Positions 2-33,505 of a DNA stretch of 35,636 nucleotides are shown here, piece by piece. The stretch's first letter is position 1. The number at the start of each line of letters is the position of its first letter. Origin of the DNA: a virus. The notes under the pieces are model-generated. The model saw only the letters and a list, made by a program, of their open reading frames with translations. It had not been told where the DNA came from and searched no databases. Position numbers and translations under genes: made by a program. Where the stretch lies: positions 1 to 35,636 of IMG/VR virus record IMGVR_UViG_3300042892_002007, one strand, 5' to 3'.

Positions 2-1564
2 GGTGCTATTGATGCGTTCTACGAAGACACTGACAAGCCTGTCATCATCGACAAGTCCCGTGGCTGGCCTATCGGTCAGATCATGGGCGCTATGTCACAG
101 GTGCTAGGTCGTCAGCCTAAGATCATTGCTACTGTTCGTTCTGTTCCTGACTGTGCCGCCAGCTTTATCCGTGTTGCCAAACCAACAGACCTAGACGAGT
201 TCATGGCAACTGGTCAATTGATGGATCACCTCCGCGCCGCTTACATCTCCCTGCAAAACGGCTACGAGTACGCACCAGAAAACTTCCTGTTTGTTGAATA
301 CGAAGACTTGTTAGCTGACCCCAAAGCGCAGTTAGCCCGTATCCATGAGTTCTTAGAACTGCCTGAGTTTGCCTACGACTTCAACAACATTGATGGCTCA
401 AGCGTAGCTGAAGATGACGAGAACCTACACGGTCACGCAGGTATGCACGATGTCAAGCCTGTATTGGCGGCACAGCACAAGCAAGACCCCCGCGATCTAC
501 TGAAGCACCACTACTCAGCATTCTGCCAGCCTGAGTTCTGGCTTGAGCGTCCACGCACAGTTCCTGAGTTGCATGACCTAGATTTACAGCTTGCCGCATC
601 CACAATGGGTGACTTTGCTGAAGGCTGGAGACTGGCTCAGAAGTTAGAAGCAGAAGAACCTAACAATCATCGAGCCGCCTATAACCGTGGCTGGTACTAC
701 CTGCGTCAAGGTCAAATCCAAAAGGGCTACGGCTTGATGGACAGAGGACGAATCGTAGGTGTCTTTGGTAACTCACGCCCTGATGTGCCTACACCCCAAT
801 GGGACGGCAAGACAAAGGGTACGGTCATGCTGTATCTGGAAGGCGGTCTGGGCGATCAGATTCACCAGATTCGCTATGCCAAGCTGATTGCAGAGCGTGG
901 CTGTAAGGTGGTTGTTTCCTGTACTGGACAACTGGCATCCTTATTCCAAGGCGTAGAAGGCGTATCAGCCGTAGTACAGCATGAGGCTACCTTTGGTATC
1001 TACCACGACTTCTTTGTGTCTGGAATGTCTGCTGTGGTTCCTCTAGGCTTAGAACTTCGTGACCTGTCTGGTGCGCCCTACCTTGAGAAGCCAATGTCGA
1101 TCAAAGGGCGTAAGAAACGCATCGGTCTGCGCTGGCAGGGCAACAGTAAATTTGAGCACGAACATCATAAAAAGTTTCCCTACGATCTGATGTTTGACGC
1201 AGTAAAAGATGCTGATGCAGAATTTATTTCTTTGCAGCGAGATGAGGGTGTAGACGCTTGCCCAGCTTGGGTAAAACAAGTACCATTACAGTCATGGGAA
1301 GACACTCGACAAGCGGTGGCTTCATGTGACTTGGTGATCTCAGCCTGTACCTCTGTCAGTCACTTGGCGGCGGCGATGGGCGTAGAAACTTGGGTGGTAA
1401 CTCCGATCATGCCTTACTTCTTATATGCGATTGACGGTGATAAAACGCCGTACTACGACAGCATGAAGCTGGTTCGCCAAGAGGTGTATGGTGATTGGAC
1501 TGCTCCGTTTGAGAAGATCAAAGAGCGTGTTGGTTCTAAGCCAGCATTGAGGAGTGTAGCGTGA
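2..1564 (+). CDS. Sulfotransferase / TPR / GT9-like glycosyltransferase fusion, 5' end outside window
   Basis: The reading frame is open to the left edge (no stop from base 2), so the ATG at 83 is internal and the gene starts upstream. The visible 520 residues begin with the C-terminal part of a PAPS-dependent sulfotransferase: DKSRGWP near residues 18-24, then an ATVRSVPDCAASF stretch like the 3'-phosphate-binding segment, then YEDLLADP. A TPR-like pair of helices follows (about 220-240). The rest resembles ADP-heptose/GT9-type transferases, with GGLGDQ at 281-286 and SACTSVSHLAAAMG near 447-460. The likely role is to sulfate and glycosylate a surface or virion glycan. Its stop overlaps the next GTG start (GTGA). 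Family assignment is from motifs; the substrate is unknown. Confidence 0.75.
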   Translation, partial: GAIDAFYEDTDKPVIIDKSRGWPIGQIMGAMSQVLGRQPKIIATVRSVPDCAASFIRVAKPTDLDEFMATGQLMDHLRAAYISLQNGYEYAPENFLFVEYEDLLADPKAQLARIHEFLELPEFAYDFNNIDGSSVAEDDENLHGHAGMHDVKPVLAAQHKQDPRDLLKHHYSAFCQPEFWLERPRTVPELHDLDLQLAASTMGDFAEGWRLAQKLEAEEPNNHRAAYNRGWYYLRQGQIQKGYGLMDRGRIVGVFGNSRPDVPTPQWDGKTKGTVMLYLEGGLGDQIHQIRYAKLIAERGCKVVVSCTGQLASLFQGVEGVSAVVQHEATFGIYHDFFVSGMSAVVPLGLELRDLSGAPYLEKPMSIKGRKKRIGLRWQGNSKFEHEHHKKFPYDLMFDAVKDADAEFISLQRDEGVDACPAWVKQVPLQSWEDTRQAVASCDLVISACTSVSHLAAAMGVETWVVTPIMPYFLYAIDGDKTPYYDSMKLVRQEVYGDWTAPFEKIKERVGSKPALRSVA

Positions 1565-2688
1565 GCTTTAGATACGCCGCTGGGATAAACAAGCCGGGGT
1601 TTAATCCGCTTGGTGCTCAGACGAGTTCGCTTTTGTACAACTTATTTAGTTGGGGAAATAACAGTAATGGTCAACTTGGCCTTGGTAACTTAACTAACTA
1701 CTCCTCACCAAAGCAAGTTGGAGCATTAACTACTTGGTATGGTATTTTCGCTGGGGATTTTTCTGTATTTTCAACAAAAACCGATAGCACTTTATGGGGA
1801 TGGGGTAACAACGGTAATGGGCAACTAGGGTTAGGTAACACTACATATTACTCATCACCCAAACAAGTAGGCGCATTAACCTCATGGAGCAAAATTTCAT
1901 GTGGGAGCGGTCACACTGTAGCTATTAAAACTGATGGTACTTTATGGTCTTGGGGTGCTAACAGTAATGGTCAGTTAGGTCTTGGAAATACAACAAGCTA
2001 CTCATCTCCCAAACAAGTGGGCTTACTGACTACTTGGCTCAATATTGCTGGTGGGCTTGGAAGTCGCCACACACTCGCCACTAAAACCGATGGCACTCTA
2101 TGGTCTTGGGGAAATAACAGCGTTGGACAGCTTGGTCTTAGCAACACCACTTATTATTCCAGCCCCAAACAAATTGGTGCTTTAACTACTTGGCTAAAAG
2201 TATCATGCGGCAGGTATTTTTCCGCTTCTATTAAAACCAACGGTACGCTTTGGACTTGGGGCGATAACACAAACGGTCAATTGGGTTTGGGCAACACAAC
2301 TTATTATTCCTCTCCTAAACAAGTTGGCGCTTTAACAAATTGGCTTACAGTAACCTGCGGTAAATATTTTACAGTTGCAGTAAAGACTGACGGAACTTTA
2401 TGGAGTTGGGGTAGGAATAATGTTGGTCAGTTAGGTCTTGGCAACACAACAAATTATTCTTCACCCAAACAAATTGGCGCACTTGCAACTTGGTTAACTT
2501 CTGTCGCTGGTTTTACTCATGCTGGTGCAATTAAAACTGATGGATCGTTTTGGGTTTGGGGTAGAAACCATCTTGGACAATTAGGTTTAAATAACATTAC
2601 TAATTATTCAAGCCCTAAGCAGGTTGGAGCTTCTCTTACATGGTTAACTCCAGCCATGACCGACGACTCAACTATAGTTTTAGGATAA
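1561..2688 (+). CDS. RCC1-repeat beta-propeller protein (probable virion or receptor-binding protein)
   Basis: 375 aa, starting at a GTG that overlaps the upstream stop by 4 bp. After a short N-terminus (MSFRYAAGINKPGF) there are seven near-identical units of about 53 residues with core SWGxNxxGQLGLGNxTxYSSPKQVGALTxW. That is the number expected for one closed seven-bladed RCC1/BLIP-II-like propeller. No signal peptide is seen. Codons look A/T-richer than in neighbouring genes, which may mark separate origin. Position beside a second RCC1 gene and sugar-modifying genes fits a tail or capsid decoration that binds a host surface ligand, but the function is inferred. The DNA repeats should allow blade exchange between the two genes. 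Confidence 0.8.
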   Translation: MSFRYAAGINKPGFNPLGAQTSSLLYNLFSWGNNSNGQLGLGNLTNYSSPKQVGALTTWYGIFAGDFSVFSTKTDSTLWGWGNNGNGQLGLGNTTYYSSPKQVGALTSWSKISCGSGHTVAIKTDGTLWSWGANSNGQLGLGNTTSYSSPKQVGLLTTWLNIAGGLGSRHTLATKTDGTLWSWGNNSVGQLGLSNTTYYSSPKQIGALTTWLKVSCGRYFSASIKTNGTLWTWGDNTNGQLGLGNTTYYSSPKQVGALTNWLTVTCGKYFTVAVKTDGTLWSWGRNNVGQLGLGNTTNYSSPKQIGALATWLTSVAGFTHAGAIKTDGSFWVWGRNHLGQLGLNNITNYSSPKQVGASLTWLTPAMTDDSTIVLG

Positions 2689-2691
2689 GTA

Positions 2692-4119
2692 ATGGCAACC
2701 ACCGTCGTATCAGGCGTTCAATACTCAGGTATCTGGAACATCAGCAGTCAAGCCAATGCGCGTGGCTCTAACCAGTGGCCTGCCGCTCCCGGTGCTCCTA
2801 CCATTGGTACAGCCACTGCTACTGGAACGACTACGGCATCAATAACTTTTACTGCGCCAACAAATCTTGGAATTCCTGCAACTATTACTGGGTACACAGT
2901 TACTTCTAGCCCCGGCGGTTTAACTGGCACGGGTGCATCTTCCCCTATTACTGTGTCAGGTTTAACAAGTGGTACAGCTTACACATTTACAGTAACTGCT
3001 ACAAACGCAACAGGCACTGGCCCAGCTAGTGCGGCAAGTAACAGCGTTACACCACCATTACCTGTAAATCTATATTCTTGGGGTAAGGGTCAATTTGGTC
3101 GTTTAGGTTTGGGCAATGTAACTGACTACTCATCACCTAAACAAGTTGGGTCATTGACTAATTGGGTTGAAATTGCGGCACAAAATGATTTTAGTATGTC
3201 AATTAAGACAGATGGGTCTTTATGGGGCTGGGGTAATGGTAGTCAAGGGCGCTTAGGTTTGGGAAATACAACCAGTTATTCAAGTCCAAAACAAGTTGGA
3301 AGTTTGCTAAATTGGTCAAAAATACAAACAGGTGATACTTTCTGCATAGCAATTAAAACAGACGGAACTTTGTGGTCTTGGGGCGACAATAGTTTTGGCC
3401 AATTAGGTTTAAATAACTCTACATATTATTCAAGCCCCAAGCAAGTTGGCGCTTTAACCGCTTGGAGCAAAATATCTTGCGGAAATGCTTTTACTCTTTC
3501 CATTAAAACAGACGGCACATTATGGTCTTGGGGGCGTAATTCATTTGGACAACTTGGTTTGGGTACAAGTGGAGCATATACACAAAGGTCTTCGCCTGTA
3601 CAAATAGGTGCATTAACTGCTTGGGCGAGTGTATCGGCTGAAGGTAATTCTAGTTTGGCTGTAAAAACTGATGGAACACTCTGGGCGTGGGGCTATAATA
3701 ATTTTGGTCAATTAGGATTTGGAAATACAACCGATTATTCAAGTCCTAAGCAAGTAGGTGCTTTAACTAATTGGCTTTTACCATCTGGTGCAAGTACCAA
3801 TAGCTTTGCCATTAAAACCGATGGAACTATATGGTCGTGGGGAAGAGGCGGTCAAGGTCAACTTGGGTTAGGTAATACAACTTACTATTCATCACCCAAG
3901 CAAATTGGCGCTTTGACTATTTGGTCAAGTATAGCTGGTGGTAATAATCAAGCAATTGCATTAAGGACAGATAAAACTCTTTGGACATGGGGCGCAAATG
4001 ACTTTGGGCAACTTGGCTTAGGTAATGTTACTTACTACTCTTCACCAAAACAAGTTGGGGCTTCAGCTAATTGGACTAGAGTTGCCGCTGGCGAAAGATT
4101 TATGTTGGCTATTGGATAA
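2692..4119 (+). CDS. FN3 domain plus seven RCC1 repeats, probable virion adhesion protein
   Basis: 475 aa. The N-terminal GIWNISSQANARGSNQWP stretch resembles segments common at the start of phage tail or structural proteins. Residues about 31-120 form a fibronectin type III domain (Pro-rich start, ITGYTVTSSPGG, SGLTSGTAYTFTVTATNATGTGP). Seven RCC1 units follow. Unit 4 departs from the pattern (GLGTSGAYTQRSSPVQIG), while the others match the preceding gene's units closely. FN3 domains are common on phage virion surfaces, so a displayed adhesin is likely. Only 3 bp separate it from the paralogue upstream, and the pair looks like a duplication followed by addition of FN3. The ligand cannot be told. 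Confidence 0.8.
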   Translation: MATTVVSGVQYSGIWNISSQANARGSNQWPAAPGAPTIGTATATGTTTASITFTAPTNLGIPATITGYTVTSSPGGLTGTGASSPITVSGLTSGTAYTFTVTATNATGTGPASAASNSVTPPLPVNLYSWGKGQFGRLGLGNVTDYSSPKQVGSLTNWVEIAAQNDFSMSIKTDGSLWGWGNGSQGRLGLGNTTSYSSPKQVGSLLNWSKIQTGDTFCIAIKTDGTLWSWGDNSFGQLGLNNSTYYSSPKQVGALTAWSKISCGNAFTLSIKTDGTLWSWGRNSFGQLGLGTSGAYTQRSSPVQIGALTAWASVSAEGNSSLAVKTDGTLWAWGYNNFGQLGFGNTTDYSSPKQVGALTNWLLPSGASTNSFAIKTDGTIWSWGRGGQGQLGLGNTTYYSSPKQIGALTIWSSIAGGNNQAIALRTDKTLWTWGANDFGQLGLGNVTYYSSPKQVGASANWTRVAAGERFMLAIG

Positions 4120-5576: not shown

Positions 5577-6013
5577 TGACAATTGTCTTTACCAATGGCT
5601 GCTTTGATGTGCTCCACCGTGGGCATGTTGAGTATCTGGAGAAATCCAAAGCGTTGGGTGACAAGCTAATCGTAGGTTTAAATTCAGATGCGTCTGTACG
5701 GGTACTAAAGCCCGGCAGACCTATTAATTCCCAAGATGACCGCATGGCTGTGCTGTTGGCTCTACGTTGGGTAGATGAGGTCATCATCTTTGATGAGCCT
5801 ACACCGTTGCAATTAATCCACAGAATCAAGCCTGACATCATCACAAAAGGCGGAGATTACAAACCTGAGCAGGTTGTTGGGTTCACCTTGGTCAAACAGA
5901 CAGTTATCATTCCTTTCCTAGATGGCCATTCATCAACAAGGATAATCAATGCAACTCAAAGGAATAGTAAACAAGGGTTGGGGGTCGGAGCTAATTTGGG
6001 CTACCAACGATAA
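5576..6013 (+). CDS. Heptose-1-phosphate adenylyltransferase (HldE C-terminal domain type)
   Basis: 145 aa, a stand-alone cytidylyltransferase-fold enzyme. FTNGCFDVLHRGHVEYL carries the nucleotide-binding HxGH (HRGH, 14-17). It is followed by GDKLIVGLNSDASVRVLKPGRPIN and DIITKGGDYKPEQVVG, which closely match the RfaE domain II family. The reaction expected is ATP + D-glycero-beta-D-manno-heptose 1-phosphate to ADP-heptose, for LPS core. In Escherichia coli this domain is the C-terminal half of bifunctional HldE; here it is a separate gene placed before the kinase gene. The end overlaps the cupin gene by 65 bp, so the last ~20 residues (after SSTRIINAT) are probably a poorly conserved tail. 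Confidence 0.82.
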   Translation: MTIVFTNGCFDVLHRGHVEYLEKSKALGDKLIVGLNSDASVRVLKPGRPINSQDDRMAVLLALRWVDEVIIFDEPTPLQLIHRIKPDIITKGGDYKPEQVVGFTLVKQTVIIPFLDGHSSTRIINATQRNSKQGLGVGANLGYQR

Positions 6014-6311
6014 ATACTGCGGGAAGTTAATGACTTTCCGTAAGGGTGCTAAGTTTTCTATGCACTTCCACTCTGAGAAAGATGAGACTTGGCTAGTCCA
6101 AAGTGGTCTGTTCAAGGTTATTTGGATTGACACCAAAGATGCCAGCCGCCATGAGAAGATCCTTAACGTCGGGGATACATGGCACAACCCACCATTACTC
6201 CCTCACCAGCTAGTCTGCCTAGCAGCAGGTGTGATCTTAGAAGTCTCAACTGCTGATTCCGTAGAAGACAACTATCGAGTAGAAGCGGGGGACAGTCAAT
6301 GCGTATCTTAG
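5949..6311 (+). CDS. Cupin-domain sugar isomerase/epimerase-like protein
   Basis: 120 aa single cupin. The GKLMTFRKGAKFSMHFHSEKDETWLV stretch carries the cupin motif 1 pattern (HxH followed by E), and LLPHQLVCLA with LEVST supplies motif 2. It resembles type II mannose-6-phosphate isomerase C-terminal cupins. The start sits about 10 bases after AAGGAT inside the upstream gene. It lies between the two halves of an HldE system, so a role in heptose or related sugar-phosphate metabolism is likely but not proven. It overlaps the next gene by 13 bp. Confidence 0.65.
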   Translation: MQLKGIVNKGWGSELIWATNDKYCGKLMTFRKGAKFSMHFHSEKDETWLVQSGLFKVIWIDTKDASRHEKILNVGDTWHNPPLLPHQLVCLAAGVILEVSTADSVEDNYRVEAGDSQCVS

Positions 6312-11751: not shown

Positions 11752-12095
11752 GCTTTCTTGTTACCACTGACTTTGAACTAAACAAGGTAGCCGCACCTAA
11801 TCTGCCACTACCTCCAGAAGATTACAACCGCCAGTATTTTGACCAGATGCTAAACATCCTGCGTCTGTATTTCAACCGGCTTGATTCGCTGACCACTCAG
11901 TTAATGGCGTCTGGCGTAGTGCCACCATTGACTAACTACACCGTAGCTACGCTACCTAGCGCAGTCACTTCAGGCGTAGGTGCAAGGTCTTTTGTAACAG
12001 ATGCTTTAGGCCCAACATTTGGGGCTACCGTTGTGACTGGCGGGGCAGTAGCCGTGCCTGTATATTCTGACGGCACAAATTGGAAGGTTGGATAA
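11748..12095 (+). CDS. Small virion-associated protein, hypothetical
   Basis: 115 aa, overlapping the upstream stop (ATGA). PPEDYNRQYFDQMLNILRLYFNRLDSLT forms a helical N-terminal half. The C-terminal half ATLPSAVTSGVGARSFVTDALGPTFGATVVTGGAVAVPVYSDGTNWKVG is a pattern seen in many phage structural proteins ('FVTDA ... VPVYSDG.W'). The stop TAA overlaps the next ATG (TAATG). It is probably a tail component or adaptor; the exact role is unknown. Confidence 0.6.
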   Translation: MSFLVTTDFELNKVAAPNLPLPPEDYNRQYFDQMLNILRLYFNRLDSLTTQLMASGVVPPLTNYTVATLPSAVTSGVGARSFVTDALGPTFGATVVTGGAVAVPVYSDGTNWKVG

Positions 12096-15000
12096 TGGCT
12101 ATTAGTTACGAAGCCGCATATGACGCGTTTGGTGGAAAAGAAGCCACTGATAACTTACTGGAACAATTAAGGTCCATGGGGTTATCTGAGGATGTAATTA
12201 ACGCTGCGTTAACCCCGTATTTCAAAACAACCCCTGCGGCTGTCACTACCCCTGCAGCGGTCACTACTCCGGCGGTTGTCACCCCGCCTGCTACAACACA
12301 AACGTTTTCAGATCAAATTACATCTGGCGCCGACACTACTCCAGATGAGTTTATGTCTTTGGTTTCAACCCCGGCCAGCACGGTAGTTGGTGGAACGGGT
12401 AATGATACGGTTACGGGCGCTAAGGGTAACGATACGGTAGTGGCTGCGGCTGGTGCCGATACAGTTGTAGGCGGAACCGGCAATGACACAGTTACGGGCG
12501 CAGCAGCGGATAACATAACTCGATCTGGATTAACTGGACAAGCCGGTCAGATGGTTGTTGAAGGCGATGATATTGAGACACAGATTTCTCAGTTGCCTAC
12601 GGAATATGCAAGCTGGTCACGTTCGGCTGATCAGCGTTCTATGGAATTAATTCGCAAGTCGGATGGGGCCGTTTTGGACCGCCGCACGGTGGGTGACTTT
12701 AGCGATCTAGAGCTTGCAAAAATTGGCTTGTCTTTTATCCCCGGCGCGGGACAGATTCTGGCTGGGTTAAATGTTGCAGATGCTGTTAGAAGAGGCGATT
12801 TATTGCAAGCGGCTATTGGTGTCACAGGATTGATGCCGGGGGCGCAAAACGTTAACACAGCGCTACGTGTGGGACAGGCCGTAGATTCTGGAAATACATT
12901 TGGGGCACTTACAGCGCTGGCTGGCAATACAGACCTACAAAACCTGACTGGTTTAAACACAGTTAACGTTGGTGGGTTTACTTCTAAAGATGTGATGTCG
13001 GCAGCCCAATTAGGATCGGCTGCTCTTGCGGGCAATACCGCTGGTGTTCTGACAAGCTTAGGTGCATTGGCTGGCAGTAGCGACACGGTGTTGGCTGGTC
13101 GGGCTTTGGGGTTAATTACACGCATTCAAAACGGAGATACCAGGGCGCTTGGCGAAGCTATTAGTTTGTCAAATAGCGTTGCTGGCGGTGGCACTACAAC
13201 TGGTTCCACTGGCTCTACCGGGTCCACCGCAGCAGCCATTACCACTTTGTCTGACGAAGACTTGGCAGAGCTACAACCCGGGGAACTAAACGCTTACCAA
13301 AATGGCGGCGTTCAGGGATTAGCTGACTTTAGACGAGACATGCGGTTGCTCAATAGTTTAACCACCAGCGGTCGCACAGGCGATGACACAGGCGGCGACA
13401 CAACTACCACAAGCACCGTGGTTGGTGGAGCCGGTAACGATGTGACACTACCCGGTGGAGTGCAACTTGCTTCGACTGGCGATGGCGTATTTAGAACAGA
13501 TGTTGGCGGCACGCCTATATTTGCGGATAGTAAAAACGCGGCCACGGTTACGGTCCCGTTTGGCTACACCTTGCTGTCTTCTTCAGAAGCAGACAATAAA
13601 CCAGAGGGCGCGTACTACGACATTACCGCCAATGCCTGGTTCAAGCCCAGCACAGACCTTGCCGATTTAACTAGCGGCACCTCTATTAAATCCGATGTGG
13701 ACCTGTTTAACAGTTCCCTTGGCGACTTAGATACGTTAGATAACACCAACAGAACAACCGATGACTTTGCTGATTTCTTAAGAACTATTGGCATTACAAA
13801 TGTGTCGGAGCTGACGGATAGCGGGCTGTCCAACCAGGACATCCTGGACATGATCAACGCGTTAGACGACACGGTCGTAGTAACTGGTGGCACTGGTAAC
13901 GATTCTATTAAAGGCGGGACAGATAACGACACCATTGAGACTGTTTCGGTTACGGGTGGCAGAGGTAATGACGTCATTACTGGCGTTAGTACCATAGGCG
14001 GTGCGGGTGGTAATGACCTGATTGTTGATGACAAAGGAACCGTTACTGTGGTGGGTAAGAAAGAATCTTGCCCGGTTGGTTCTGTGTTAAATCCTACAAC
14101 TGGTGAATGTGAAATTATTGATGACAAGGGCACAGTGACCATTGTTGACAAAAAAGAATCCTGTCCAATTGGCACGGTGTTAAATACCGAAACGGGTGAG
14201 TGTGAGGTTGTGACGGAGCAGCCTATTACATGCCCCGCAGGCTATGAACTAAACGCCGCTGGAACAGAATGTATTCCAGTAGTTGAAATTGTGGATAAGA
14301 AATGCGGCGTAGGCTACGTCTACGATGAAGAGTTAAAGAAATGTGTAGCCATAACCGAAACGCCCATTACCTGCCCAGCAGGCTATGAGCTAAATGACGC
14401 TGGTACGGAATGTATACCCGTTGTAACAATTACAGATAAAAAATGCGATGCCGGTTTTGTCTACGACGAAGACCTCAAAATGTGCGTCCCAATTAAGGTA
14501 GATGAAACATGCCCCACAGGATTCCATAAAGATGAAAGCGGCAAGTGCGTCCCAGATACCAAGGAAGATCTGAAATGCCCAGAAGGATATGAGCCTAATG
14601 AAGCTGGCACGGAATGTATTCCAGTAGTAACTATTACAGATAAAAAATGCCCGCCTGGCCAGGTGTACGACGAAGACTTAAAGATGTGCGTTGCAGTTAA
14701 GGATGAGGAATGCCCAACTGGTTATCACCGTGACGCGTCTGGAGTTTGCGTATTAGATGATTGCCCAGATGGCTACGCCCGTAATTTGGCCACTGGTGTC
14801 TGTGAAAAAGTGGAAGAGCCTTGCCCAGAAGGATTTGAACGCGATGAAATTACAGGGAAGTGTATTCCGGTAGTTACGATTGTGGACAAGAAATGTCCGA
14901 CTGGATTTGTATACGATGAAGAATTAAAAAAATGCGTACCCATTAAGGAAGAAGAGTGCCCCACGGGTTACCACCGCGATGAGTCAGGCGTTTGTGTTAA

Positions 15001-15952
15001 GGACGCAATCATTTGCCCAACAGGTTATGAGCTTAATGATGCGGGTACAGAATGCATTCCGGTTGTTGAAATCGTAGATAAGAAATGTCCAACCGGTTTT
15101 GTATACGATGAAGAGCTTAAGAAGTGTGTTCCTATTAAAGAAGAGGAATGCCCAGAAGGGTTTGAACGTGATGAACTGACGGGCAAATGTATTCCAGTCA
15201 TCACCATCGTAGATAAAAAATGTCCGGTCGGTCAGGTCTACGATGAGGAATTAAAGAAATGCGTGCCTATTGAAGAAGACTGCCCCGAAGGATTTGAGCG
15301 TGATGAAATTACGGGCAAGTGTATTCCGGTCATTGTGATTGAAGACAAGAAATGTCCGGTAGGATCTGTGTACGATGAAGAACTAAAAAAATGCGTACCT
15401 ATTGAAGAAGATTGCCCAACCGGCTTCCATAAAGACGAAGCCACCGGTTTGTGCGTGCCGGACGATGATGATAAATGTGAAACCGGGTATGAAAAAGTTG
15501 ACGGTAAATGTGTGCCGGTTTGCAAAGAAGGGTACATCCGCAACTTAGCTACCGGCGTCTGCGAAAAAGAGGCAGACAAAGCTTGTCCACTTGGGCAAGT
15601 GCGTAACGCGGAAGGTAAGTGCGTTCCTGTCACAACAGTTACGCCACCTCTTGTTTGCCCAACCGGATACCGAAACGTTGGCGGTGTGTGCGTTCCAATC
15701 ACAACCACTACGCAGCCAACTTACACAACCGGAGCATATGGCGCCCAAGGAGAAAAGACTGATCCCATCTATGCGGGCGGTATGGATGACTTTAATTTAT
15801 TGGCTACTTTAGAAGAGCTTTTGGCAAAAGAAGCCCCCAAAAAAGATACCAAGAAATCAAAGGATAAGACTAAAATGGCTACCGGCGGGCACCTTGACGA
15901 CCTGCTGGCGGAGCCGATGACAGTGGACGATCTGCTAAAACTCTTACGCTGA
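12095..15952 (+). CDS. Giant virion protein with RTX-like repeats and 25 two-Cys repeats
   Basis: 1285 aa from ATG 12095 (MAISYEAAYDAFGG), chosen over an in-frame ATG 15 bp upstream because it overlaps the previous stop. Residues about 98-140 and 596-648 hold RTX-like GGxGNDTV nonapeptides. Residues 150-560 are Gly/Ala-rich and helical, as in ejected internal proteins. Residues about 659-1199 contain 25 tandem short units C-P-x-G-(Y/F/V)-x(7-11)-C-(V/I)-P with Asp/Glu/Lys-rich linkers, giving 50 Cys. The C-terminus ends MATGGHLDDLLAEPMTVDDLLKLLR. Paired Cys spacing suggests one disulfide per unit, formed outside the cytoplasm or after lysis. Function unknown; a fibre or tail component is plausible. 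Confidence 0.75.
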   Translation: MAISYEAAYDAFGGKEATDNLLEQLRSMGLSEDVINAALTPYFKTTPAAVTTPAAVTTPAVVTPPATTQTFSDQITSGADTTPDEFMSLVSTPASTVVGGTGNDTVTGAKGNDTVVAAAGADTVVGGTGNDTVTGAAADNITRSGLTGQAGQMVVEGDDIETQISQLPTEYASWSRSADQRSMELIRKSDGAVLDRRTVGDFSDLELAKIGLSFIPGAGQILAGLNVADAVRRGDLLQAAIGVTGLMPGAQNVNTALRVGQAVDSGNTFGALTALAGNTDLQNLTGLNTVNVGGFTSKDVMSAAQLGSAALAGNTAGVLTSLGALAGSSDTVLAGRALGLITRIQNGDTRALGEAISLSNSVAGGGTTTGSTGSTGSTAAAITTLSDEDLAELQPGELNAYQNGGVQGLADFRRDMRLLNSLTTSGRTGDDTGGDTTTTSTVVGGAGNDVTLPGGVQLASTGDGVFRTDVGGTPIFADSKNAATVTVPFGYTLLSSSEADNKPEGAYYDITANAWFKPSTDLADLTSGTSIKSDVDLFNSSLGDLDTLDNTNRTTDDFADFLRTIGITNVSELTDSGLSNQDILDMINALDDTVVVTGGTGNDSIKGGTDNDTIETVSVTGGRGNDVITGVSTIGGAGGNDLIVDDKGTVTVVGKKESCPVGSVLNPTTGECEIIDDKGTVTIVDKKESCPIGTVLNTETGECEVVTEQPITCPAGYELNAAGTECIPVVEIVDKKCGVGYVYDEELKKCVAITETPITCPAGYELNDAGTECIPVVTITDKKCDAGFVYDEDLKMCVPIKVDETCPTGFHKDESGKCVPDTKEDLKCPEGYEPNEAGTECIPVVTITDKKCPPGQVYDEDLKMCVAVKDEECPTGYHRDASGVCVLDDCPDGYARNLATGVCEKVEEPCPEGFERDEITGKCIPVVTIVDKKCPTGFVYDEELKKCVPIKEEECPTGYHRDESGVCVKDAIICPTGYELNDAGTECIPVVEIVDKKCPTGFVYDEELKKCVPIKEEECPEGFERDELTGKCIPVITIVDKKCPVGQVYDEELKKCVPIEEDCPEGFERDEITGKCIPVIVIEDKKCPVGSVYDEELKKCVPIEEDCPTGFHKDEATGLCVPDDDDKCETGYEKVDGKCVPVCKEGYIRNLATGVCEKEADKACPLGQVRNAEGKCVPVTTVTPPLVCPTGYRNVGGVCVPITTTTQPTYTTGAYGAQGEKTDPIYAGGMDDFNLLATLEELLAKEAPKKDTKKSKDKTKMATGGHLDDLLAEPMTVDDLLKLLR
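14063..15705 (+). repeat. 25 tandem two-Cys protein repeats
   Basis: Counted by eye: 25 units of roughly 16-28 residues, each with one CPxG and one closing Cys, inside the 1285-aa protein. Three unit types alternate (KKC-x-xG-VYDEELKKCVPI; EECP-GYHRDESGVC; DCPEGFERDEITGKCIPV), so blocks were duplicated as pairs or triplets. DNA copies remain similar enough to recombine. Confidence 0.75.
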
Positions 15953-31409: not shown

Positions 31410-31448
31410 ATGGGGACTAAGCCAAGCTTCCATTCGTGTTGGTGGTAA
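31410..31448 (+). CDS. Possible 12-aa leader peptide ending Cys-Trp-Trp
   Basis: ATG at 31410 is preceded by GAGGAG (31396-31401, 8-base spacing) and opens MGTKPSFHSCWW followed by TAA. Tandem Trp codons at the end of a short leader frame, overlapping alternative RNA helices, are the pattern of ribosome-mediated attenuation. The downstream gene is a glutaredoxin, not a Trp gene, so the sensed signal is unclear and chance remains possible. Confidence 0.35.
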   Translation: MGTKPSFHSCWW

Positions 31449-31508
31449 ACGGGTTAGCGCCGTGCGTTGTTCCTTAGTTCGGTTTTAATGCCAACACTGC
31501 TTCATGTG
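31436..31508 (+). repeat. Copy A of a two-copy RNA-like element
   Basis: Shares with 32216-32285: GTGTTG, the 13-mer CGGGTTAGCGCCG, TCCTTA and AACACTGCT-x-CATGTG in the same order. The hairpin closing pair changes from A-T here (ACGG/CCGT) to G-C in the other copy (GCGG/CCGC), a compensatory change. Confidence 0.55.
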
Positions 31509-31534
31509 CCCACTAACAATTTACAGGAGCTGCT

Positions 31535-31794: not shown

Positions 31795-32046
31795 ATGAAT
31801 TTACCCTACGAACTAGAACACTTTGCTGCTGCCGTGCGTAGTGCGCGCAATGCGTTAGGGTGGGCTCAGAAAGATTTAGCCATGCATACGGGGCTGTCTT
31901 TGCCTACGATTGCCAGGGTTGAAACGGGTCAAAACCCTCAAGCGGTAACCATGCTGCAGCTTATTAAATTATTTAAGGCCCGCGGTATTGAGTTCGACTG
32001 GCGCCCGGACGGGTTTAAAATGGAAACTATTTTCCTGGTCAGTTGA
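31795..32046 (+). CDS. XRE-family HTH repressor
   Basis: 83 aa. NALGWAQKDLAMHTGLSLPTIARVETGQNPQAVTMLQLIKLFKARGIEF is the lambda-repressor-type helix-turn-helix, with a short C-terminal strand segment. There is no Shine-Dalgarno sequence before the ATG; instead a palindrome occupies this space, suggesting autoregulation. The stop TGA overlaps the -35 hexamer of the downstream ncRNA promoter. Likely the regulator of the early region. Confidence 0.75.
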   Translation: MNLPYELEHFAAAVRSARNALGWAQKDLAMHTGLSLPTIARVETGQNPQAVTMLQLIKLFKARGIEFDWRPDGFKMETIFLVS

Positions 32047-32072
32047 CAAGCCAATAATTTATTTGGTATAAA
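32043..32072 (+). promoter_or_regulatory. Strong sigma70 promoter for a small RNA
   Basis: Consensus -35 TTGACA (32043-32048), 18 bp spacer, TGG-extended -10 TATAAA (32067-32072). Predicted transcription start near 32079, directly where the first RNA hairpin begins. The -35 overlaps the XRE stop codon, so XRE gene transcription could interfere with it. Confidence 0.7.
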
Positions 32073-32078
32073 CGAGGT

Positions 32079-32198
32079 GTTGCTGTAGTGAGCAATAAAT
32101 TTAGGCCGTTTACACATGCGTTTCGCCTTACCTAATGACCCAGTTGGAAAGTCATTAGGCAAGGTCACTACCGAACGCAGTTGTAAACGGCCTTTTTT
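32079..32198 (+). ncRNA. Candidate ~120-nt structured phage RNA with kissing-loop and built-in terminator
   Basis: No ORF fits; the RNA is bounded by the promoter at 32043-32072 and a T6 tract (32193-32198). Hairpin 1: TTGCT (32080-32084)/AGCAA (32091-32095), loop GTAGTG. Hairpin 2, long: GGCCGTTTACA (32104-32114)/TGTAAACGGCC (32182-32192); TGCGTTTCG (32117-32125)/CGAACGCA (32172-32179, one T bulged); CCTT (32126-32129)/AAGG (32161-32164); CCTAATGAC (32131-32139)/GTCATTAGG (32151-32159). The 3' bulge TCACTAC (32165-32171) is perfectly complementary to GTAGTGA (32085-32091). Function unknown. Confidence 0.6.
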
Positions 32199-32600
32199 GT
32201 TTTGAGACTGGGATTGTGTTGCGGGTTAGCGCCGCAAGCTCCTTAAAGTGGACGAAGAAGTTTTGAAAAAACACTGCTACATGTGAGCAGTCCCAGTCTC
32301 TCCTCCTACGGCAACCCTCAGAGCGGGTTAGCTAATAGGCCAATGTCGGGGCCGTACTCAAGAAACCGATGGCGCTTTAATAGACCCCCGGCGCCGCAGC
32401 GTTTCGTAGCGACTGCATAAAACGACCAAGCAAACCGACAATCAGCGTCTGGCCCACGACACGGGCGGTCGATAGTTGAATACGACGTTCCGCGAGCAGC
32501 AGGTTTCGACTGGCTGGTGACTTCCACATACCTACCGCAAGGGTACAGGTCGGGAGTCTCGGGGGTCTACTATCGCTATACGTACTGCCTGCTATAAATA
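32199..32600 (+). ncRNA. Dense inverted-repeat region, possible second structured RNA or origin
   Basis: About 400 bases without a supported gene. Domain 1 is closed by GAGACTGGGA (32204-32213)/TCCCAGTCTC (32291-32300), enclosing GTGTT/AACAC (32216-32220/32270-32274), GCGG-GTTAGCG-CCGC (32221-32235) and CTGCT/AGCAG (32274-32278/32286-32290). Domain 2: TACGGC (32307-32312)/GCCGTA (32351-32356) around AACCC/GGGTT (32313-32317/32325-32329). Further stems: GGCGC/GCGCC (32371-32375/32391-32395), CGACC/GGTCG (32423-32427/32467-32471), GCCC/GGGC (32452-32455/32463-32466) and ACC-GCAA-GGT-type hairpin near 32531-32550. It may be RNA, a replication origin, or both. A frame 32253-32597 interrupted by one TAA is the coding alternative. 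Confidence 0.4.
32216..32285 (+). repeat. Copy B of a two-copy RNA-like element
   Basis: Partner of 31436-31508 about 780 bp away; see that entry for the shared blocks. A partial third match, GCGGGTTAGC, lies at 32323-32332. Copy B is embedded in the closed three-way domain 32204-32300. Confidence 0.55.
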
Positions 32601-32617
32601 AACAGGAACAACCTGTT
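32601..32617 (+). promoter_or_regulatory. 17-bp palindromic operator candidate
   Basis: AACAGGAACAACCTGTT, a perfect 6-5-6 inverted repeat overlapping the -35 of the promoter at 32616-32644. The same layout with identical right half lies at 31776-31792 before the XRE gene. A dimeric repressor bound here would block the following operon. Confidence 0.5.
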
Positions 32618-32644
32618 GCAAAGTATCTTGAATACGTGTATAGT
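32616..32644 (+). promoter_or_regulatory. Sigma70-type promoter of the right-hand early operon
   Basis: -35 TTGCAA (32616-32621), 17 bp spacer, -10 TATAGT (32639-32644). The start near 32651 is 20 bases before the ATG at 32671, with SD AAAGGAGA between. The palindrome 32601-32617 overlaps the -35. Confidence 0.6.
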
Positions 32645-32670
32645 CGATTTCAAGTTTAAAGGAGAAGCTT

Positions 32671-32853
32671 ATGACAAAACACGGGGGAGCTAGGGTTGGC
32701 GCGGGCCGGCCGGCAACACCAATAGATGTAAGGCGGGTGATTGTGCTGCGTAAACAGGGGCTTTCGTATCGACAAATTGCAGAAAGATTTGGGGTAACGG
32801 AAACAATTGTAAGGCGGGCCATCAGAAACGAAAACAAAAAGGATCAAGCATGA
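32671..32853 (+). CDS. Small HTH protein with GGARVGAGRP basic motif
   Basis: 60 aa. MTKHGGARVGAGRPATPID is the Gly/Arg motif often found at the N-terminus of phage DNA-binding proteins, followed by a helix-turn-helix (VLRKQGLSYRQIAERFGVTETIVRRAIRNE, about 25-54) of the Hin-recombinase/sigma-like type. First gene after a promoter with an operator. Could be an early transcription regulator. Strong SD AAAGGAG. It overlaps the next gene by 4 bp. Confidence 0.7.
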   Translation: MTKHGGARVGAGRPATPIDVRRVIVLRKQGLSYRQIAERFGVTETIVRRAIRNENKKDQA

Positions 32854-33152
32854 AACCAAACAAACAAGCGATTTGCCTAGTGATGGCCAAGTTTCAGTAC
32901 GACTGCCGCAACGAACGGTTAATGTGGCAATGGTTATTTGAATGGGCTACCTGGGGCGAAGACATGGGCTGCTTTGTAGACGCCCGCATGCCAGTGTTTA
33001 AGCCCAGGAAACCAAAGCGCAAGTGGAAGAACCTGACCAATAGTGAAACAAACGCCATCATCAGACAGATACCCAACTGGACAACGGATCACCTCAACAC
33101 ATTCATCTTTAAGGTGCTGGTGGAAGAGAAATTTAAGGAGAAAAACGCATGA
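32850..33152 (+). CDS. Hypothetical early protein
   Basis: 100 aa. Trp- and Lys-rich: [19 protein letters not shown], then a basic patch [13 protein letters not shown] and a helical C-terminus ending [12 protein letters not shown]. No domain recognised. It overlaps both neighbours by 4 bp (ATGA). The basic middle could contact nucleic acid or host RNA polymerase, but this is only composition. Confidence 0.55.
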
Positions 33153-33505
33153 AAAAAGAAGACTTACTTGATCAACTTGCAATAGAAATGTTGCGTCTTG
33201 CACCGCATTTGTTGGTGAAAACTTATGAGGTTTATGACCTTGCAAAGGCAATGGTAGATCGTAGACAGCACATCCTTGATCAATGGACGTTGCGCGATGC
33301 CAACAGCGGAGGTGCGATTGAATCTTTGGGGCTAAGCGTTAGATCTGGTAAATGTCTGGAGGCAGAGGAGATTTACACAATCGATCAGCTGATTTACTAC
33401 ACCGAGAATGAGTTACTAAAAACGCCCAATCTAGGCCGCAGAAGTTTGAATGAAATTAAAGAGAAGCTGGCCGAGCGAGGACTGAAGTTGCGGGGACAAG
33501 CATGA
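33149..33505 (+). CDS. RNA polymerase alpha C-terminal-domain mimic
   Basis: 118 aa. Residues 57-115 align by eye with the bacterial Rpo[55 protein letters not shown]. Against E. coli numbering, R65 equals R265, G96 G296, S99 S299 and E102 E302, residues that touch UP-element DNA; N268 is Lys68, K271 is Glu71 and K298 is Arg98. The N-terminal 55 residues are helical and unlike RpoA. It could bind promoter DNA or activators in place of the host subunit, or be grafted into a phage regulator. Function is inference. Confidence 0.75.

Follow-up and report, generated by a model that had tools for sequence, protein, structure and literature searches.

The window, i.e., the whole stretch of DNA analysed here, is a 35.6-kb virus record in which a predicted small RNA (sRNA) gene is preceded by phage recombination genes (encoding an exonuclease and an Erf-like protein), a glutaredoxin gene and an HTH gene. 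On its 3' side follow a leader and the small genes listed in Table 1, one of which carries an alpha-CTD domain that hints at control of host transcription. Virion-side genes are found at 12080-15952 and 1561-4119 and encode a 1290-aa protein, part of which is cysteine-rich and chitin-binding/EGF-like, as well as two RCC1-repeat proteins. A search for tRNA and tmRNA returned none. Eighteen full records, which may be fragments, gave no match to tyrosine or serine recombinases (PF00589, PF00239), and for this reason a classical lysogenic immunity is doubtful.

Table 1. Features of the predicted sRNA gene and of the region downstream of it, in window positions.
Feature	Position	Strand	Remarks
Promoter	32043..32072	+	TTGACA at 32043-32048, 18-nt spacer, extended -10 TGG-TATAAA with the -10 box at 32067-32072
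P1, 5' hairpin	32078..32097	+	predicted first base of the sRNA at about 32079
Pseudoknot 5' strand, GTAGTGA	32085..32091	+	in the P1 loop; exact loop/bulge complement in 112 of 113 relatives
P2, 5' strand	32103..32123	+	conserved 2x2 internal loop UUACA-CA-UGC / GCA-GU-UGUAA
P3, apical hairpin	32125..32164	+	length and sequence differ among relatives
Pseudoknot 3' strand, TCACTAC	32165..32171	+	bulge separating P3 from P2
P2, 3' strand, and T6 run	32174..32198	+	sRNA end resembling an intrinsic terminator; T6 at 32193-32198
Hairpin GAGACTGGG...CCCAGTCTC	32204..32300	+	between terminator and target; conserved, in a subset of relatives
Putative cognate target CCTCCTACGGCAACC	32302..32316	+	pairs with 32079-32092 (GUUGCUGUAGUGAG), -19.1 kcal/mol
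Leader, structured and ORF-poor	32317..32670	+	ahead of the gene at 32671; replaced by other modules elsewhere
HTH / sigma-70 region 4-like gene	32671-32850		first gene 3' of the leader
Small RNA polymerase alpha-CTD-like gene	33149-33502		after the leader; PF03118, E 1.5e-20

The segment 32079-32199 is laid out like a free-standing sRNA gene of about 120 nt, in which a candidate promoter is followed by a 5' hairpin, a long hairpin and a T6 run. All positions that the initial annotation had given were borne out when the sequence was read again, and folding reproduced the 5' hairpin followed by the long hairpin it had described, with exactly the 7-nt bulge. The predicted fold of 32073-32199 has an energy of -54.2 kcal/mol (z -7.7), and none of 200 shuffled sequences folded as low. 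Among 123 relatives, the best promoter box scores 9.3 of 12 compared with 7.4 in shuffled sequence, and a promoter-like box mostly lies 6-9 nt 5' of the hairpin; a scan with a fixed consensus misses the window's own -10 box because its last base is A. The stem pairs of P1 are retained in 96% of the cells of the alignment, and a run of T5-T8 follows the hairpin in 111 of 114 relatives. Open reading frames called over the sRNA turned out to be different-frame translations of a conserved RNA and were judged spurious.

When the exonuclease was used as a query, 80 phage loci were obtained, about 25 of which contain the sRNA as detected by BLAST, and folding showed that the layout is kept while the letters differ. 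A pattern derived from P2 matched at least 119 viral contigs and no bacterial genome. Among the matches listed, there are 113 relatives in the sense of distinct copies with full upstream sequence, and in 112 of these the 7-nt loop is the exact complement of the bulge, the remaining one (L177) having a G-U pair. When the bulges were dealt out at random, on average 8.2 and at most 18 exact complements were obtained. The 113 relatives carry 26 loop labels, two of which are artefacts of the longest-match rule. In a 60-sequence alignment, both sides change together at six of the seven pairs of the pseudoknot helix, as the initial annotation had proposed to look for, and the covariation over the whole structure was reached by none of 500 shuffles. 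On this comparative evidence the 7-nt match between loop and bulge is genuine and best read as a pseudoknot. A covariance model, likewise suggested at the outset, recovered a single copy in each locus and never more than one true copy in a full phage record; second matches that had seemed to indicate several copies per genome turned out to be that hairpin read on its antisense strand.

The same pairing would also be expected if the loop of each RNA bound the bulge of a neighbouring molecule, so that rings or chains formed as in phi29 pRNA or GOLLD/ROOL and the variable letters separated the assemblies of co-infecting phages, since covariation fits intra- and intermolecular pairing alike. Covarying intermolecular kissing loops have been published for the ROOL and GOLLD RNAs, which are phage-associated like the sRNA described here (PMC12286853). 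However, the bulge is separated from the end of P2 by 17-21 nt, and in nearly all relatives it lies 16-21 nt ahead of the end of the matched core, though the length of P3 varies widely, and this near-fixed distance favours a single molecule with a P1/pseudoknot stack spanning P2. Such assemblies would moreover not predict the downstream complement described below, and we consider them quite improbable.

In this group of relatives, termed class A, the sequence varies in the pseudoknot and in P3 but hardly at all in P2 and the P1 stem. Taken together with the high predicted stability of the sRNA, this would suit a decoy that binds a protein or the ribosome and titrates a host or phage factor through its conserved parts, such as the internal loop of P2, with the pseudoknot letters drifting neutrally and the downstream similarity being secondary. 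The invariance must be taken with caution, however, since it is partly imposed by the search pattern and since L007, L009 and L059 have other P2 sequences, as do the RNAs of the second class introduced below. A decoy would also leave unexplained the downstream segment that covaries in the phage pair L005/L006 and is, in our view, unlikely.

A script that used the layout only, requiring a 7-mer in the loop of one hairpin and the complementary 7-mer in the 3' bulge of a terminator hairpin, brought to light another class (class B) without sequence similarity to class A, including in P2, and gave no match in 60 shuffled loci. A pattern for class B had at least 120 viral matches, and among the matches listed 85 of 90 show a loop/bulge match of at least 7 nt, compared with 15.6 when shuffled. 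The initial annotation had argued for a folded RNA, to all appearances independently transcribed, with a loop/bulge interaction, and the compensatory changes across two RNA classes strongly support this proposal. Random changes in both paired segments of the homologues, which it had named as an argument against the idea, were looked for and did not occur. An inverted repeat that arose by chance and has no function is refuted by the covariation in classes A and B and by the absence of layout matches in the shuffled loci, and its probability can be regarded as negligible.

Sixty-one loci had enough flanking sequence to be scored, 43 of them as class A or B, and L024 and L073 appear B-like by eye. 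Other structured RNAs, assigned by eye to classes C and D (L003/L011/L017 and L062/L067/L069), occupy a similar place between promoter and T-run where relatives have class A or B; in class C, the best loop match is 5 nt. A scan of bacterial genomes from about 85,000 species revealed no genome with a convincing copy, the class A pattern having no bacterial match and the class B pattern 26, none with a 7-nt match plus a T-run; in L352 the match is only 6 nt. Judged from these searches, the predicted sRNA belongs to a family carried by hundreds of uncultured water phages at one genome position.

The sRNA behaves as an exchangeable cassette. Phages that are nearly identical to each other around the window share the promoter and the downstream DNA and differ in the RNA. 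In the pair L005 and L006, which carry unrelated RNAs, the region from -850 to +2000 contains 76 differences in the RNA (0-100), 6 at +200-250 and fewer than 10 elsewhere, and L044/L078 provide a second example. The only other cluster of changes in the approximately 2.8 kb around the sRNA is a segment of about 12 nt located 3' of the terminator. In the L005/L006 comparison this segment, the putative target, is complementary in each phage to the 5' strand of P1 plus the loop in that phage's own RNA, and in near-identical phages it changes along with the RNA class, its sequences being like CUACGGCAAC in class A and like CUCCACACC in class B. Since the roughly 100 nt between the RNA and the target are essentially unchanged in L005/L006, one contiguous swap or hitch-hiking does not explain the joint change.

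The covarying complementarity between seed and target that an antisense sRNA should have was found, and is imperfect at the level of single loops. In a swap test on pairs of loci with similar leaders, the cognate combination was favoured by a mean of -3.0 kcal/mol and by about 26.5 to 8.7 independent pairs, with a median p of 7.5e-4 that, like the other p-values given here, is approximate because the loci are related by descent; shifted controls gave weak effects of -0.2 to -0.8. Pairings of class A with class B in independent sets were all negative (mean -11.8), and the effect was weaker within class A (mean -2.1, p 0.007). The rule that defines the target in this test was refined once, following an initial run, and the 7-mers of L180, L197 and L119, which the longest-match rule had mis-called, were assigned by hand. 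Own seeds also ranked better than seeds of other types in the region of the target (mean rank 0.39, p 9e-4; 0.23, p 2e-4), an advantage that was absent at a region 200 nt away. As many loci (e.g., L186, L184 and L171) show an imperfect loop-specific match to the target, the loci share descent and the target rule was refined, the evidence for a putative cognate pairing is good but not final. Elsewhere in the flanks, no case could be made for a target in trans, the loop 7-mer occurring 0.61 versus 0.44 times per 10 kb (8/200) and its reverse complement not being enriched. Pairing of P1 with the upstream 300 nt was no better than permuted.

The reading we favour, with about even confidence, is that of an antisense sRNA that has a pseudoknot-locked seed and is directed at the leader of the downstream operon, a possibility that the initial annotation had listed and that gains support from the covarying putative target just downstream. 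According to this model, the RNA would be transcribed from its own promoter and, in class A, end at the P2/T6 terminator after about 120 nt. The P1 5' half plus the loop would serve as the seed, seven bases of which would be sequestered by pseudoknot pairing with the terminator hairpin's bulge, and this pseudoknot would fold and protect the RNA. The complementary segment, which lies just 3' of the terminator at the 5' edge of that leader, would be bound in trans on RNA that has read through the terminator or that was started at promoters further upstream. Opening of P1 and the pseudoknot would then allow a longer seed:target duplex that could alter leader folding, termination or translation, whichever direction the regulation takes, and each allele would acquire its own specificity as seed and target change together.

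The main rival is a purely cis-acting attenuator, in which P1, the pseudoknot and the terminator would make up one of the folds of a leader, the P1 5' strand would instead pair with the downstream segment within read-through RNA, and the terminated RNA would be a by-product inactive in trans. The minimum-energy fold of 32060-32670 indeed contains this long-range pairing with P1 opened, and cognate pairing between seed and downstream segment is equally expected in this case. Yet the downstream pairing leaves the P2 terminator hairpin intact so that no obvious on/off switch results, and the dedicated promoter directly 5' of P1 together with the conserved T-run suggests a discrete product. We therefore regard an attenuator as rather unlikely, although less so than the decoy or the intermolecular assemblies.

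On the broader scale, the locus looks like a member of an undescribed family of swappable regulatory RNAs. More tentatively, and as a possibility that we hold with considerable doubt, the RNAs might form a large undescribed class of phage sRNAs, each with a variable, self-complementary seed that a pseudoknot locks and with a cognate target in the leader. Alleles differing in fold (A, B and probably further ones) would be exchanged at one site under selection for new specificity, and this would amount to a compatibility or superinfection system made of RNA only in phages that have no recognised integrase. The findings add an abundant RNA family that is apparently confined to phages, absent from Rfam and defined by very strong covariation, and they offer an example of allele exchange, open to testing, where sRNA and target change together. 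If the antisense reading is true, phages with no recognised integrase would use swappable RNA specificities much as temperate phages use the immunity types of their repressors, and orthogonal RNA control could be built on the seed/lock design.

The initial annotation knew of no family with this layout, and this still holds, as scans with Rfam 15 gave no match over the sRNA in the window or in other loci, whether at the curated threshold or at E up to 5, and no description of this sRNA was found in the open-access literature. There was also no match in these scans to the C4 antisense RNA, which we take to be among the families scanned. A resemblance to the self-cleaving pistol ribozyme was considered and rejected, since pistol also has a 5' hairpin whose loop pairs with a junction but has its second strand on the opposite side of P3, and no match was found. 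The pRNA of phi29 is a phage-associated RNA with covarying kissing loops. Like ROOL and GOLLD, it is far larger than or unrelated to the sRNA described here, and none of them was matched by it in Rfam.

The nearest published logic, by analogy, is probably that of IsrK from the Salmonella prophage Gifsy-1, a terminated sRNA that pairs in trans with its own read-through transcript, both arising from the same promoter (PMC4825925). The putative target described here likewise lies just after the terminator, and this complementary segment covaries with the seed. IsrK differs in that it shows no sequence or Rfam match, and the portions of its description considered here mention neither a 7-nt pseudoknot lock nor exchangeable alleles (PMC4825925). 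Furthermore, IsrK regulates translation of a small ORF. Phage precedents for variable antisense specificity may be seen in C4 and CI RNA. The C4 antisense RNA of phages P1 and P7 has a variable specificity loop of 7-11 bases in which changes of a few bases alter specificity, and its target is carried by the transcript from the immunity region to which it belongs (PMC5320573). It is processed by RNase P to about 77 nt and uses two loops, a' and b' (PMC5320573), whereas the sRNA described here is a promoter-to-terminator unit with a pseudoknot, for which one target site was found. The CI RNA of satellite phage P4 is described as an antisense RNA that is processed from a leader transcript, pairs with complementary sites upstream and downstream of its gene within the leader region, and controls the entry of transcription into the operon, with an effect on termination (PMC4825925). 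With the upstream 300 nt examined, the sRNA described here has a downstream site only.

The putative target sits at the 5' edge of a structured, ORF-poor leader of 250-400 nt, and several unrelated leader modules occur among the phages. Conserved ORF-poor modules unrelated to one another were seen in L131, L182, L140, L153 and L020 (e.g., CCGTCAGGGCGCGTTAGCTGATGG... and GACTCGGACACCATGCGG...), and some leader modules end in a terminator-like hairpin of their own. A related hairpin (GGGTTAGCGCC ... ACACTGCTWCATGTG) occurs twice on the + strand of the window, at about 31424-31515 before the glutaredoxin gene and at 32204-32300 after the sRNA terminator, and is possibly a leader RNA module. In L189 (5101-5216) and L112 (8239-8356), the Betaproteobacteria-1 RNA (RF02932; 94 and 87 bits) lies directly 3' of the sRNA as a neighbouring leader element distinct from it. 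The same element is present without the sRNA in Acidovorax phage AP1 (L219, about 5935-6085), between the primase gene and the next gene, and its occurrence in this operon suggests betaproteobacterial hosts. Finally, L140 contains at 234-299 a threshold-level match to the Rfam int-alpA RNA (35.9 bits, gathering threshold 35.8).
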